Assembly: GCF_021729015.1 (NCBI RefSeq)
Contig: NZ_JAJQQZ010000002.1
Location: 248,001-312,000 of the forward strand
Direction of reading: 5' to 3'
Source of the DNA: Halobacterium rubrum
Lineage (GTDB): Archaea > Halobacteriota > Halobacteria > Halobacteriales > Halobacteriaceae
Length of the DNA: 64,000 nucleotides
The position numbers and the translations under genes were made by a program. How positions within the stretch are numbered: position 1 is the first letter of the stretch; every line of letters begins with the position of its first letter. This document shows positions 2,413 to 59,657 of this stretch, piece by piece. The notes beneath the pieces are model-generated. The model was not told the DNA's origin. It saw only the letters and a list, made by a program, of their open reading frames with translations, and did no database searches.

Positions 2413-3774
2413 ATGCGCGAGGCACACCCGGTCGAGCGAGCCGTCGAGATGGAGTACTACGCCAGCGACAGCGACGGCACGGGCGGCCGGCTCCGCGAGT
2501 CCCCCGAGGACTTCCGCGTGCGCGAGCTCGAGGCGTTCGACACCCAGCCCGTCGACGCGCCGACCGGCGACTACCCGTGGCTCGTCGTGCGCGCGACGCT
2601 GCGCCGCTGGGACACCAACGACTTCGCCCGCGAGCTCGCCAACAGCGTCGGAATGAGCCGCGAGCGCGTGACGTGGGCGGGGACGAAAGACCGCCACGCC
2701 GTCACCACCCAGCTGTTCGCCGTCCGCGACCTCGACGCCGACCAGCTGCCCGAGATCCGGGACGCCGACATCGAAGTCGTCGGGCGGGCGGGTCGCGGCC
2801 TCGAGTTCGGCGACCTCGCCGGCAACGCCTTCGAGATCGTCGTGCGGGAGCCCGACGCTCCCGAGCAGGCCGAGGCTGTCGCCGACGACCTCGCCGGATT
2901 CGCCGGCGGTGAGGTGGCCGGCTCGCGGGCTTCGCCCGCTCCCTCGTCCCGAGACGCGTCGCGTCTCGCGGTCGGCGTGCCGAACTACTTCGGTCAGCAG
3001 CGCTTCGGCAGCAAACGCCCCGTCACCCACGAGGTCGGGCTCGCCATCCTGCGGGACGACTGGGAGGGCGCCGCGATGGCGTACCTCGGCGACCCCACCG
3101 AGCACGAGCCCGAGGACTCCCGGGCTGCACGCGAGTACGTCGAGAACACCCGCGACTGGGAGGGCGCCTTAGAGGAGTTCCCGCAGCGCCTGCGCTACGA
3201 GCGCACGATGCTCCACGAGCTCGTGGACGGCGGCAGCTTCCGTGACGCCGTCGAGACGTTCCCGTCGAACCTCCAGCGGCTGTTCGTCAACGCCGCCCAG
3301 TCGTACGTCTTCAACCGGATACTCTCCGAGCGCATGGAGCGCGGGCTGCCGTTCCACGAGCCGGTCGCCGGCGACGTCGTGTGGTTCGCCGACAGTGACG
3401 CCGCCGCCGAGGTCGCCCAGCCCGACTCCTCGCGCGAACAGCGCGTCACCGAGTCCCGCGTGGACGTGATGGCCCGGCACTGCGAGCGCGGCCGCGCGTT
3501 CGTCACCGCACCCCTCGTCGGCACCGACACCGAGTTCGCCGACGGCGAGCCCGGCGACATCGCCCGCGGCGTCCTCGACGACCTCGACCTCGCGCCCGCC
3601 GACTTCGACCTCCCCGGGAACTTCGACTCCCAGGGCACCCGCCGCGCGATTCTCCTCCAGCCGGACCTCGCCATCGACCACGACCCGCTGACCTTCGAGT
3701 TCGCGCTGCCCTCCGGCAGCTACGCCACGGTCGTCCTCCGCGAGTTCCTCAAGACCAGTCCGCTGGAGCTCTGA
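2413..3774 (+). CDS. truD: tRNA pseudouridine(13) synthase TruD
   Basis: Converts U13 of tRNAs to pseudouridine. The catalytic aspartate is in [15 protein letters not shown], the hallmark of the TruD family, followed by the [10 protein letters not shown] and [12 protein letters not shown] motifs. Length is 453 residues. The gene is divergent from the carotenoid oxygenase, and the T-rich patch GGGTTAAGCC about 27 bases before the ATG suits a leaderless start. The odd feature is a low-complexity segment at about residues 168-186 ([17 protein letters not shown]), just before the conserved VPNYFGQQ. It is encoded by two adjacent DNA palindromes and looks like an in-frame insertion (see the repeat at 2925-2968). 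Confidence 0.95.
2925..2968. repeat. Paired hairpin element inside truD
   Basis: Two inverted repeats with 3-base loops. The first is GCGGGC-TTC-GCCCGC at 2925-2939 (6-bp arms). The second is CGAGACGC-GTC-GCGTCTCG at 2950-2968 (8-bp arms). They are separated by 10 bases. The 44-bp block stays in frame and adds an alanine/serine/arginine-rich loop to TruD. The geometry matches the pairs at 15138-15189 and 58692-58743. Confidence 0.8.
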
Positions 3775-15082: not shown

Positions 15083-15103
15083 CGCCGAGGAGGAGATTTG
15101 AAC
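15083..15103 (-). repeat. Partial tRNA-Ser 3'-end copy (att-like)
   Basis: These 21 bases are identical to 15285-15305, the 3' end of the tRNA-Ser gene, 202 bp away. Weaker similarity continues about ten bases into the 3' flank (GTTCCGGAGAA against GTTCCAGAGAAG). Such duplications are typical attachment-site remnants left when an element integrates at a tRNA gene. Confidence 0.75.
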
Positions 15104-15137
15104 CAGAGCGAGACGGTCGCTCCCTCCGGTCGCCGTC

Positions 15138-15189
15138 ATCAGAAATCGAGGATTTCTGATTGCCTCGAAAATCGCGTAGCGATTTTCGA
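15138..15189. repeat. Paired 10-3-10 hairpins, 52-bp module
   Basis: Two perfect inverted repeats. The first is ATCAGAAATC-GAG-GATTTCTGAT (15138-15160). The second is TCGAAAATCGC-GTA-GCGATTTTCGA (15165-15189). Four bases separate them and the total is 52 bp. The same total length and geometry recur inside etfA (58692-58743), with unrelated arm sequences. Confidence 0.88.
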
Positions 15190-15284
15190 ACGCTGCGTCT
15201 CGCAGGGCTCAAATCTCCCTCGTCGACACGCTACCGCACGACCAGCGACATAGCCGTCGTTGGCCGGTGCAGGTTCCAGAGAAG

Positions 15285-15369
15285 CGCCGAGGAGGAGATT
15301 TGAACTCCTGAGTCCGTGTGGACAGTTGCTCTCGAAGCAACCGCCTTGGCCAGGCTAGGCTACCTCGGC
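15285..15369 (-). tRNA. tRNA-Ser (anticodon CGA)
   Basis: Read on the minus strand, the 85-base gene has a GCCGAGG/CCTCGGC acceptor stem with discriminator G. The anticodon loop is TTCGAGA (anticodon CGA, decoding UCG) on a GGTTGC/GCAACT stem. The long variable arm GTCCACACGGAC and the GGAGTTCAAATCTCC T-arm are those of a serine tRNA. No CCA is encoded. A TATA-like ACTAAACTC about 29 bases upstream (about 15394-15402) should drive it. There is no intron. Confidence 0.95.
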
Positions 15370-16427: not shown

Positions 16428-16918
16428 TCGCGGAGGACGTACGCCAGTAGCGTCCCTCCGAACAGCAGCGTGAGCAGCGCGGTCAGCGGGAGGCTGCTCG
16501 GTCCGAGTGTGTAGACCACCAGTGCGACCGCCGCGACGACCAGCGACAGCGCCGCCGTCGAGAACACGTGGACGACGACGGACTGCGTGACGCGGCCGTC
16601 TCGGCCGACGTCGACGCCGAGGCCGACGGCGTGTTCGGCGGCGTCGTACGCGACCACGGCGCCGACGCCGCCGACGAGCGCGTACCCCGGGTCGATGCCG
16701 GTCGCCGCGCCGAGGATGACGCCGACGGCCAGCGCCGCGGCGCCGACGGAGACGAACCGGCGGTTGCCCTGGAGGCCGCCGCCGACGACGAGGAGCGCGC
16801 CGGCAGCGCCCGCGGCGAGGCCGGTGCTGGAGCCCAGCGTCGGCACCAGTGCGACGACCGCCGCGACGGCCGCGGGGAGGACGGCGCGCGTCGGCGGGCG
16901 GGCGTCGAACTCGCTCAC
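16424..16918 (-). CDS. Small membrane protein of the MoxR/DUF58 cluster
   Basis: A 164-residue protein with five or six hydrophobic segments and little else: AVVALVPTLGSSTGLAAG, then GAAALAVGVILGAATG, and a C-terminal ALLTLLFGGTLLAYVLRD. The start is GTG (complement of 16916-16918), reading VSEFDARPPTRAV and overlapping the DUF58 stop by four bases, so it is the last gene of that operon. Small proteins like this recur in haloarchaeal DUF58 clusters (I recall the label DUF7519, not verified). Its role is probably structural within the same membrane complex. Confidence 0.72.
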
Positions 16919-18180
16919 GCCGACCACCCCCGTTCGGCGTCGGCGACCGCCAGCGCCAGCGAGTCGTCGGCGCCCCAGTCGATGACGCGGACGCCCGCGG
17001 CGCGCAGCGACCGGATGCGGACGGCGCGCTCCATGCGCGCGAACTGCTGGCCGAGCGTCTCCGAGCCGGTGACGTCCGGCGACACCACCGTCACCGGGTG
17101 GCCGCTGGCCTCCAGACGGCGGACGTACTCGGCGGCGTCGTCGTCGACGAGCGGCGAACAGAACACCACCTGTGCGTCGTCGGGGAGGTGTTTGCGGAGC
17201 CGGCGGAACACGAGCGCGCCGAGGAACCGGCGGTCGGGCGCCGACACCGAGAAGCCGCGGTCGCGCGCCAGGAGTTCTTCGAGGCGCGCGCTGTGTTCGC
17301 GGCCGAGACCTGGTGCGAGCCACGCCCAGTGCGGGCCCAGCGACGCCACGCCGACCTGGTCACCGGAGTCGAGGAGCGCCGACGCGACACCGCCCGCGGC
17401 TTCGACGCCGTACTCGACCGCGTTCGTACCGTCGGCGTCACCGACGTGGGCGGCGCGCCGGGTGTCGACGACCGCGACGACGGTGGCGGCTCGCTCCTCA
17501 CGGAACTGGATGGTGGCGAGTTCGCCGTCGCGGGCGAGGCGCTTCCAGTCCACTCTGCTCAGGGGGTCGCCCGAGCGGTACTCGCGGGTCGCGTGGAACT
17601 CCACGCCCGAGCCGCCCGTCGACGTCGGGACGCGACCGACGCGCTGGACGGTCTGCTCGCGCAGCGGGAACGACTCCAGCGCGGGGAGGTCCGGCACGCA
17701 CGCCAGCGCCGTGTCGGCCGGGACCGAGGTCCGCGTCTCGTGGCTGCCCGTGACGTCGCGGGCGACCATGTCGACGGTGCCGAACTGGTGGTCGCCCCGG
17801 GCGGCTTCTACGGTGTAGGTGACCGTCGCCGACTTGCCCGCTCGGAGCGCGGTGGCGAGCCGGGGCGTGCCGTCGACGACAGCCAGCGTGTCTGGGACGC
17901 CGTCGATCAGCCGGAGGTCCGGGAGGAACGACCCCTCGTTGGTCACCGTCAGCGTCACCTGGACCTCGTCGCCGCGCTCGGGATCGTCGTCGGACACCGA
18001 CCGTTCGACGGTCAGCGACGGCGTCGGTGGCGTGAACAGCTTCGCGTAGCCGGCGACGGCGGCGCCGAACACGCCGAGCACGAGGACGCCGGGGACGCGC
18101 GTCGTGGCGCCGATGGCGATCGCGACGAGGGACAGCGCGACCGCGCCCCGCCAGCGGTGGGTCTGCTCGGACACCATCAC
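16915..18180 (-). CDS. DUF58 domain protein
   Basis: A 421-residue membrane-anchored protein. Two hydrophobic helices lie near the N-terminus (about residues 12-46), then a beta-rich extracellular-type domain with SVSDDDPERGDEVQVTLTV. The DUF58 signature GVEFHATREYRSGDPLSRVD and WKRLARDG follows at about residues 193-220, then a von Willebrand-like region (TVVAVVDTRRAAHVGD). Such proteins are thought to be clients or partners of MoxR ATPases. The start overlaps the upstream gene by four bases. Confidence 0.9.
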   Translation of the reverse strand: MMVSEQTHRWRGAVALSLVAIAIGATTRVPGVLVLGVFGAAVAGYAKLFTPPTPSLTVERSVSDDDPERGDEVQVTLTVTNEGSFLPDLRLIDGVPDTLAVVDGTPRLATALRAGKSATVTYTVEAARGDHQFGTVDMVARDVTGSHETRTSVPADTALACVPDLPALESFPLREQTVQRVGRVPTSTGGSGVEFHATREYRSGDPLSRVDWKRLARDGELATIQFREERAATVVAVVDTRRAAHVGDADGTNAVEYGVEAAGGVASALLDSGDQVGVASLGPHWAWLAPGLGREHSARLEELLARDRGFSVSAPDRRFLGALVFRRLRKHLPDDAQVVFCSPLVDDDAAEYVRRLEASGHPVTVVSPDVTGSETLGQQFARMERAVRIRSLRAAGVRVIDWGADDSLALAVADAERGWSA

Positions 18181-57944: not shown

Positions 57945-59657
57945 ATGGCGCTTGACCCAGGCGAGTACGACATCTCGGAGCTCGGCCCCGCGATTCAGGA
58001 CGTCGAGGACGTCGACGAACTCGAGGACATCCTCGAGGCGGAGAAGGCCGGCGAGAACCGGGTCGGTGCGAAACAGCTCGTCGAGTCCCGCATCGAGAAG
58101 TTCCGCGAGGACGGCGAGGACGGCGGCGACGGCGACTTCGACCCGACGGAGATGAGCCCCGCCGACATCGCGAACGCGCTCCAGGACGTCGACAGCGTCG
58201 ACCGTCTCAAAGAGATTCGCGACATGGAGGAGGCGGCCGGGAGTCGGGACAACGTCCTCCGCCTCATCGACAAGCGCGTCGACTCAATCCAGGGCAGCGA
58301 CGAGGAGACGGTCGTCGACCGGGCGCCGCCCGAGGAGCGCCACCCCGACCTCGACCACCCGACCGCCGACAAGCAGTACGTCGAGGACCTTGAGGACGGC
58401 ACGTACCGCGACATGTGGGTGTACTGCGAGACGACCGACGGCGAACTGCTGGACGTCTCCCGTGAGATGCTCGGGAAGGCCCGCCGGCTGATGGACGGCT
58501 ACAACGACGAGTACGGACGGGACGAGCGCGTCGTCGCCGTGCTGCTCGGGGACGGCGTCGCGGACCTCACCGACGAGGTGGTCGAGCTGGGCGCCGACGT
58601 CGTCGTCTACCAGGACGACCCCGAACTCGCGCGGTTCCGGCACAAGCCGTACACGGAGCTGTTCGCGGGGATGGCCCGGGCGGGCGGTGCGCTCGGGCGG
58701 CAAAGCCGCCCGAGAAACGACGAGGCCGGTGAGACCGGCCTCGCTCTGGACGAGGAGCCCGACGCCGGGGATTCGTCGTGGCGGGACTACGACGAGCCCC
58801 GGTACGTGTTGTTCCCGGCGACGGACGACGGCCGGGACCTCTCGGCGCTCGTGCAGGGCGAACTCGACTCCGGGCTGGCGTCGGACTGCTCGGGGCTGTA
58901 CATCGAGGACACCGTCATCTCGAACCCAGCGAAGACCGGCCGGGAGGGCGACAAACGCGAGTTCGAGGCCGTCCTCCACATGAAGCGCCCGGACTTCTCG
59001 GGGTTCGAGTACTCGACCATCCTCTGTCTGGACAACCCCACGCGGGAGTTCCACCCGCAGGGCGCGTCGGTCATCCCGGGGAGCTTCGAGGCGCCGGACC
59101 CCGACCCCGCCCGGGAGGGCGAGGCCTACGAGTACGACTTCGCGCTGCCCGAGGACTGGTTTCGGGTCGACGTCACGGAGCACGACGAACTCGACTCTGG
59201 CGTGGACCTCACCGGCCACGACGTCGTGGTCGGGCTCGGGCGCGGCATCGGCGACGACCCGACAGCGGGGATGGAGCTCGGCCTCGAACTGGCGGACGCC
59301 TTCGAGGACGCCGCGCTCGGCATCACCCGGGGCATCGTCACGTCCTCGTACGACTTCGAGGGGCACGTCGAACAGTACGCCCGCGAGGAGCGCCAGATCG
59401 GCGAGACCGGGCAGGTCGTGGAGCCGAAGCTGTACGTCGCGGCGGGCATCAGCGGCGCCATCCAGCACAAGGTCGGCGTCGACGAGGCCGACACCATCGT
59501 CGCCGTGAACACGGACCCCGACGCCGACATCCGGGACTTCTCGGACTACTACGTCGAGGGCGACCTCTTCGAGGTGTTGCCGGCGCTGGTCGACGCGCTG
59601 GAGTCCGGGGAGCTGGACGAGGCGGCGCTGGCCACCGGAGGTGGTGACGATGACTGA
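57945..59657 (+). CDS. fixB: Electron transfer flavoprotein alpha subunit (FixB), extended
   Basis: Alpha subunit of the Etf, 570 residues, far longer than the usual 310-330. The FAD-binding C-terminal domain is intact (VVGLGRGIGDDPTAGMELGL, QIGETGQVVEPKLYVAAGIS, IQHKVGVDEADTIVAVNTDP). The N-terminal 130 residues contain two similar helical units, one at about residues 8-50 (AIQDVEDVDELEDILEAEKA) and one at about 72-115 (ALQDVDSVDRLKEIRDMEEA). A third oddity is a loop at about 249-268 made by two DNA hairpins (see 58692-58743). It begins two bases after the fixA stop. Confidence 0.92.
   Translation: MALDPGEYDISELGPAIQDVEDVDELEDILEAEKAGENRVGAKQLVESRIEKFREDGEDGGDGDFDPTEMSPADIANALQDVDSVDRLKEIRDMEEAAGSRDNVLRLIDKRVDSIQGSDEETVVDRAPPEERHPDLDHPTADKQYVEDLEDGTYRDMWVYCETTDGELLDVSREMLGKARRLMDGYNDEYGRDERVVAVLLGDGVADLTDEVVELGADVVVYQDDPELARFRHKPYTELFAGMARAGGALGRQSRPRNDEAGETGLALDEEPDAGDSSWRDYDEPRYVLFPATDDGRDLSALVQGELDSGLASDCSGLYIEDTVISNPAKTGREGDKREFEAVLHMKRPDFSGFEYSTILCLDNPTREFHPQGASVIPGSFEAPDPDPAREGEAYEYDFALPEDWFRVDVTEHDELDSGVDLTGHDVVVGLGRGIGDDPTAGMELGLELADAFEDAALGITRGIVTSSYDFEGHVEQYAREERQIGETGQVVEPKLYVAAGISGAIQHKVGVDEADTIVAVNTDPDADIRDFSDYYVEGDLFEVLPALVDALESGELDEAALATGGGDDD
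58692..58743. repeat. Paired 10-3-10 hairpins inside fixB, 52-bp module
   Basis: CTCGGGCGGC-AAA-GCCGCCCGAG (58692-58714) and CGAGGCCGGT-GAG-ACCGGCCTCG (58721-58743), both perfect, separated by six bases. The block stays in the fixB frame and encodes LGRQSRPRNDEAGETGLALD. Total length and loop size equal the tRNA-Ser copy at 15138-15189, while the arm sequences differ. Confidence 0.9.

Follow-up and report, generated by a model that had tools for sequence, protein, structure and literature searches.

Palindromes that sit in frame inside many unrelated protein genes and encode a similar peptide there have been known mainly from Rickettsia, as the Rickettsia palindromic elements (RPEs). We report here an archaeal element that resembles them in this respect and is spread order-wide. 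It lies at positions 15134-15192, forward strand, of a stretch of 64,000 nucleotides of the Halobacterium rubrum genome (the whole stretch is called the window below), and consists of two adjacent hairpins. Our analysis makes it highly probable that this segment, named element B, is a copy of a non-autonomous mobile palindromic element of the Halobacteriales, about 53-65 bp long and built of head-to-head CGTY-tagged hairpins with 3-base loops. As with RPEs, we found ten hosts named by Pfam, a recurrent peptide, and inserts that are missing from homologues. RPEs are ~150 bp long and belong to one genus, while the element described here has an archaeal host, a length of about 60 bp, two 3-base-loop hairpins and an order-wide spread, and its arms vary by paired changes with the ends fixed. 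The likeness is one of the mode of working, and homology is not claimed.

The CGTC-tagged repetitive extragenic palindromes (REPs), which include RPE-4, RPE-6 and Neisseria dRS3, are known from five bacterial phyla only and have stems of 8-9 bp and loops of 4-5, also with no linked transposase gene (Di Nocera 2013, PMC3733652). They share with our element the CGTC at the palindrome foot, a predominance of head-to-head dimers, stem variants, the lack of a dedicated transposase, and intragenic copies, which in the bacterial case encode 20-30 residues (PMC3733652). Their definition includes an unpaired tag (CGTC, or TGTC/CCTC) at one palindrome foot; 54 of 64 copies of our element start with CGTC, and at the opposite end 51 of the 64 have AACG, which reads CGTT on the reverse strand, and 5 have GACG. 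It also includes a short tail with the consensus CCA; the spacer found here, TGGC or TGGGCTG, reads CCA on one strand, and tail and spacer overlap. However the stems here are ~10-11 bp (median arm 11 with up to 2 mismatches allowed), the loops have 3 bases in 120 of 128 hairpins with many loop sequences, CGTT is the usual second tag, the spacer has only a few bases, and the unit is the dimer. Because the stem and loop sizes depart from the definition, we did not file the element under the CGTC families 1-4. No archaeal REP or RPE-like element was found in the literature searched, subscription journals being largely outside that coverage.

In REPINs and BIMEs, which go with RAYT transposases, two inverted palindromes form one replicating unit. 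Our element has such a two-palindrome unit as well, but neither the GTAG tag nor the linked RAYT gene of those systems was seen here. Within the haloarchaea, the consulted part of the account of Haloquadratum walsbyi describes PATEs and SMRs, which are tiny, lack a transposase gene, carry palindromic or inverted repeats and make no target duplication, SMRs often being inserted inside other mobile elements as some of our copies are (Dyall-Smith 2011, PMC3119063). They differ in that PATEs derive from IS605 ends and SMRs are about 80-110 bp long with prominent terminal inverted repeats, and that part of the account makes no mention of in-frame insertion in protein genes (PMC3119063). Miniature inverted-repeat transposable elements have terminal inverted repeats in common with a transposon and duplicate their target site. 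These traits were not found here: the ends of our element are complementary over 3 bp only (CGT/ACG).

A dispersed family of two-hairpin elements

Element B is 59 bp long and reads CGTC ATCAGAAATC-GAG-GATTTCTGAT TGCC TCGAAAATCGC-GTA-GCGATTTTCGA ACG. Hairpin 1 (15138-15160, forward strand) is a perfect inverted repeat with 10-bp arms at 15138-15147 and 15151-15160 around the 3-base loop GAG, and hairpin 2 (15165-15189, forward strand) has 11-bp arms at 15165-15175 and 15179-15189 around the loop GTA. The coordinates and arm lengths given in a preliminary description of the window are thus borne out. The same description held that structure is kept while the arm sequence varies, which agrees with the paired changes and the excess over chance reported below, and that this is not a copied sequence family, which does not agree with our data: the window copy belongs to a sequence family in which the CGTC and AACG ends, the CAGAA/TTCTG base of hairpin 1 and a GGGC-type spacer are conserved. 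Using BLAST with the region, we found its central 59 bp at unlinked sites in other genomes; the whole region gave mainly tRNA ends and single hairpins against its own genome. Plasmids gave partial matches only, one of them within a tnpB gene, and a phage collection gave no match to the region. A pattern scan of viral contigs gave 4 exact pattern matches, none of them the whole element and all on contigs of 49-57% GC, which we took as chance.

A covariance model (R1) built from nine copies matches the window copy with 82.3 bits. It matches all 13 Halobacterium genomes, each of them between 1 and 81 times (a palindrome being often counted on both strands), and 57 of 59 Halobacteriales genomes, covering all 27 genera. 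A phylum-wide sample had R1 matches in 22 of 119 genomes, 20 within the Halobacteriales and two in one other family. We then considered 72 distinct copies in an alignment that was fitted to the model, which favours structure, and found 93% of the cells paired, dropping to 31-47% in controls with slid partners. The number of double-changed cells is 330 against a shuffled mean of 102, and the covariation is 0.508 against 0.155, a value reached by none of 500 shuffles. The first stem pair is A-U in 16 and the second pair U-A in 49 of the 72 copies, and the closing pair is C-G in 118 of the 128 hairpins. As the stems contain hardly any G-U pairs, the constraint on them is probably exerted at the DNA level and not at the RNA level. 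The tags point outwards in the copies displayed. Overall, the ends and the shape are conserved, the apical stem varies in pairs and the loops are free.

The element is present at some sites and absent at matching sites elsewhere, as expected of the small mobile element that the preliminary description had listed among its options and that proved to be the correct one. Two copies of one insertion sequence (IS) in congener G009 carry it in tnpB, and a third copy, 90-93% identical, is without it; they differ by exactly 60 bp, and both junctions read ACG. This is the only exactly resolved empty site, and 2-3 bp, (A)CG, are common to both ends there. An insert in the DUF84 NTPase gene of the window's genome is lacking at that site in the orthologues of nine congeners. 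Copies that share a site differ in their loops or in both arms. The orthologous DUF2797 inserts of G002 and G012 (L109/L110) differ in the loops alone, with flanks ~10% different, and at one tnpB site in three genomes the stems are identical with the loops ACA/TTT/AGA and ACA/ACA/ATA, the upstream part of tnpB being only 77-80% identical. Stem changes at one site hit both arms, e.g. CGAGACGC/GCGTCTCG in truD of the window's genome versus CGGGACGC/GCGTCCCG in H. bonnevillei, or GAGGCC/GGCCTC (G011) versus GGGGCC/GGCCCC (G009) in an insert of an S9-peptidase-like gene.

Copies in protein genes

Four of the 5 strong copies in the window's genome are in genes, encoding the DUF84 NTPase, a PAS-domain kinase, FolD and a GNAT-like acetyltransferase; in the last of these, named by sequence inspection, the copy is at the 3' end and provides the stop codon. 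Hosts in the congeners include NAD kinase, DsbH-like, methyltransferase, MinD-like ATPase, DUF2797 and TnpB genes among others, and elsewhere in the Halobacteriales a copy is found in a YjeF/NAD(P)HX dehydratase gene. The ten in-frame hosts named by Pfam are thus NAD kinase, DsbH-like, methyltransferase, MinD-like, DUF2797, YjeF/NAD(P)HX dehydratase, TnpB, PAS kinase, FolD and DUF84. In conserved genes the orientation and the frame are mostly alike and give the hydrophilic peptide [D/G]VRKTTxSSSAAHQNAxRSED of ~20 residues; the opposite orientation occurs in the C-terminal region of tnpB. The solved FolD, MinD and YjjX sequences are without the segment in the alignment, with FolD residues 264|288 facing 238|240 of 3p2o and MinD residues 61|81 facing 52|52 of 1g3q. 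An AlphaFold2 model of the DUF84 NTPase, based on a shallow alignment of five sequences, places residues 63-77, inside the insert, between a helix and a strand with a confidence score (pLDDT) below 50, and the predicted insert looks as a tolerated loop would. Conserved proteins of haloarchaea have lineage-specific inserts of 15-25 residues that one might take for functional ones; the element explains them.

The length of the element is 2 mod 3 in all 16 coding-frame copies but in 9 of 20 others in five genomes (Fisher p 0.0006), copies having been sorted by a heuristic of GC by codon position, with two known gene copies added by hand. With such a length, and with the shared CG left out of the count, the net insertion is a multiple of 3. 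In G001 a 60-nt copy frameshifts and splits a macro-domain-like gene, named from sequence inspection. We infer that insertion is blind to the frame and would take place without regard to genes, and that survival depends on the frame, with selection then purging copies that shift it or damage the protein.

Several genes have more than one insert. A small protein gene of G011 (L173:1210-1460) contains the element twice in frame, at separate places and with almost identical encoded peptides, and in L266:1203-1324 and L280:1294-1415 a gene carries two elements that overlap or adjoin, which gives an insert of ~40 residues. The DUF84 gene of G004 and G007 (L188, L189) has a different in-frame insert at another position, CAVEHRETAGNASGGTAS, whose palindromes are degenerate and which is probably old.

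The tRNA-Ser locus, rival explanations and mechanism

An intact tRNA-Ser (CGA) is encoded at 15284-15369 on the reverse strand (ARAGORN; Rfam RF00005, 54 bits), and element B is located in the centre of a nested palindrome of 145 bp next to it (element A, 15083-15227), which combines a core stem with copies of two pieces of tRNA-Ser, its 3' end and, inverted, its T-arm. The former is a 21-bp direct copy of T-arm and acceptor strand at 15083-15103, reverse strand, identical to 15285-15305; the latter, at 15204-15218 on the forward strand, pairs with 15092-15104 (inverted repeat I1, 92% complementary). At the same tRNA-Ser, G012, G002, G001, G007 and G010 have a like palindrome without element B, and G004 and G006 have neither, the number of palindromes being 0 to 2 among the congeners. 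The comparison of syntenic loci proposed in the preliminary description therefore gives presence and absence of the module, while the tRNA neighborhood noted there is no general trait of the element, this copy happening to lie within a separate tRNA-derived palindrome. Element B would have landed in the centre of this palindrome, and no effect on the tRNA-Ser itself is implied.

We counted hairpin pairs (3-base loops, arms of 7 bp or more, a gap no larger than 12) in genome samples and in six shuffles of each, a check also proposed at the outset, and the real genomes far exceed the shuffles. We found 6 pairs in 864 kb of the window's genome versus 0, 2, 1, 0, 0 and 1 in the shuffles (mean 0.7), and 17 pairs in 400 kb of congener G011 versus 0, 1, 0, 0, 0 and 0 (mean 0.2); at arms of at least 8 bp the window has 2 pairs versus none in 60 dinucleotide shuffles. 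Among single hairpins with 3-base loops, nearly all of the excess comes from those closed by C-G (C-NNN-G, 151 observed versus 67 expected), the G-closed ones being close to expectation (91 versus 84). Chance palindromes of GC-rich DNA, which the pair inside truD taken by itself might seem to favour, being near the shuffled level at arms of at least 6 bp (4 observed, 0.7 expected), are refuted for the window copy by the large excess over dinucleotide-preserving shuffles and by the sequence homology of the copies. An ordinary structured RNA downstream of tRNA-Ser, i.e. a terminator or a tRNA-processing element selected for its RNA fold, is very improbable. The position of the element downstream of the tRNA and on its strand agrees with it, as does the fold predicted by RNAfold for the reverse strand of the 151-nt region (-76.6 kcal/mol, z -6.3 versus shuffles). 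But the Rfam scan of the locus matched the tRNA (RF00005) only, G004 and G006 keep the tRNA-Ser and the neighbouring gene with neither palindrome nor module, the empty sites contradict it, including the palindromes of G012 and G002 that have no module, copies lie within protein genes, and the scarcity of G-U pairs in the stems is unlike an RNA under selection.

Hardly better placed is the repeated de novo formation of hairpins by template switching during replication, with no copied element involved. It would fit arms that differ among copies and are perfectly complementary around 3-base loops, and hairpin-templated correction would yield exactly the paired changes observed. However, unlinked copies have CGTC, CAGAA/TTCTG, GGGC, AACG and the encoded peptide in common, net insertions of 54-60 bp are missing from relatives, and template switching is unable to put identical unpaired ends at unrelated sites. 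Since the copies form a sequence family with conserved ends, this process, also named in the preliminary description, cannot be their origin, though it may still help to keep the arms complementary. A more serious rival, which we nevertheless think unlikely, is a terminal-only remnant (PATE) of an IS605-type transposon, with end palindromes fused after deletion of the core as in Haloquadratum walsbyi. Palindromic PATEs of 52 bp without target duplication are described in haloarchaea (PMC3119063), and element B often lies within tnpB or next to it and close to IS605-like right ends. Yet in G009 it interrupts the tnpB of an IS whose sister copy is without it and is thus a passenger there and not an IS end; moreover, we found no autonomous or parent IS bounded by these two hairpins, and B has two different hairpins with ends complementary over 3 bp.

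Several points weigh against our own reading of 15134-15192 as a copy of a mobile element. Transposition was never seen directly. The copies behind R1 were selected by BLAST and its calibration was short, which makes its E-values rough, including the 2.2e-27 of the window copy. The boundary of this copy is fixed only to 58-59 bp because the surrounding palindrome differs between species, and the copy is outside any conserved gene. The coding status of several copies rests on the GC heuristic that also enters the length test. Any mobilising enzyme is only a candidate: no Y1 transposase match was found in the window's genome or in G012, though both carry copies, and within the genus (n=13) copy number correlates only weakly with Y1 genes (Spearman 0.55, p 0.053). 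We had considered a Y1 link from the tnpA near copies in G009 and rejected it, as the element is inside a passenger tnpB there and the genus-wide correlation is weak.

What we observed of the mechanism is insertion of the whole unit, no long target duplication, outward-facing tagged hairpins and no transposase inside the element. Copying would pass through a hairpin intermediate of single-stranded DNA and be carried out by a recombinase in trans. The leading candidate, to which we give slightly less than an even chance, is an HUH/Y1 enzyme (IS200/IS605 or RAYT type) acting in trans; the nearest precedent for these traits is HUH/Y1 chemistry on single-stranded hairpins. An enzyme that was active in the past or is carried on a plasmid may be responsible, as may a repair route of the host. 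The conserved ends and hairpin bases would be the recognition signal, and the free loops and paired apical changes would come from recognition of shape together with hairpin-templated correction of one arm by the other. Halobacterium is free-living and genetically tractable, so that it can be tested there what copies transposase-less REP-like palindromes, what causes the paired changes of their arms, and how frequently new protein sequence comes from selfish DNA.

Other palindrome families

The preliminary description had noted the same geometry inside fixB and, in a shorter form, inside truD, and both pairs are real in-frame insertions. The fixB insertion (58692-58743, forward strand, in the open reading frame (ORF) 57945-59657) has 18 codons, arms of 10+10 bp, the loops AAA and GAG and a gap of 6, and is absent from fixB of G005. 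It has no R1 match and represents a second family, with the peptide GRQSRPRNDEAGETGLA. An 85%-identical relative in the same frame is found in an unrelated gene, the S9-peptidase-like gene of G011, and a further one in G009, so that here too the claim that no sequence family was copied fails. The truD insertion (2925-2968, forward strand, in ORF 2413-3774) has arms of 6+8 bp and a gap of 10, and is absent from H. salinarum, CBA1126 and KA-4. With its near-chance arms the pair is meaningful only since H. salinarum, whose truD is 19 codons shorter, is without that segment; truD of H. bonnevillei carries an insert at this position too, and its stem shows a compensatory change.

A tRNA-G10-methylase-like gene, so named from sequence inspection, has a pair framed by CGTC/GGGC/ACG with unrelated arms, and G011 has at least two further two-hairpin families. 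The geometry is thus common to families between which we could trace no sequence connection. We would tentatively speculate, while thinking it rather doubtful, that the CGTC/AACG, TCATCA-spacer, GGCCGTGCGAACG-spacer and fixB types are unrelated Halobacteriales families that have only two C-NNN-G triloop hairpins in about 50-65 bp in common and are copied by one machinery that recognizes the shape of single-stranded DNA, with shape inherited more than sequence and selfish peptides continually lengthening proteins across the order.

In the order, palindromes like element A also follow genes for the tRNAs Ser, Arg, His, Lys, Met and Thr, each palindrome being built from the 3' end and the inverted T-arm of its own tRNA; many include 21-24 bp copied from the end of that tRNA. 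They have a common core AGACGGTC...GCTGCGTCT (15083-15227; L024, L026, L029, L034, L039, L042, L044, L003, L002). They are a separate phenomenon; they look like scars or tandem copies of an integration that targets tRNA ends, and are possibly tiny tRNA-targeting integrative units themselves. ARAGORN also reports a tRNA with a four-base anticodon at 16888-16986 on the reverse strand, within a long protein-coding ORF, which is probably false.

The two-hairpin family with the TCATCA spacer, CGTGGTT-CGAGAGA..-TCATCA-CGA..-AACG, is tagged at both ends (L103, L104, L116, L165:2339-2400, L281, L282). Arrays of hairpins with 3-base loops and the spacer GGCCGTGCGAACG were observed in L243, L244, L245 (G011:C1:60001-120000) and L262 as a further repeat family.
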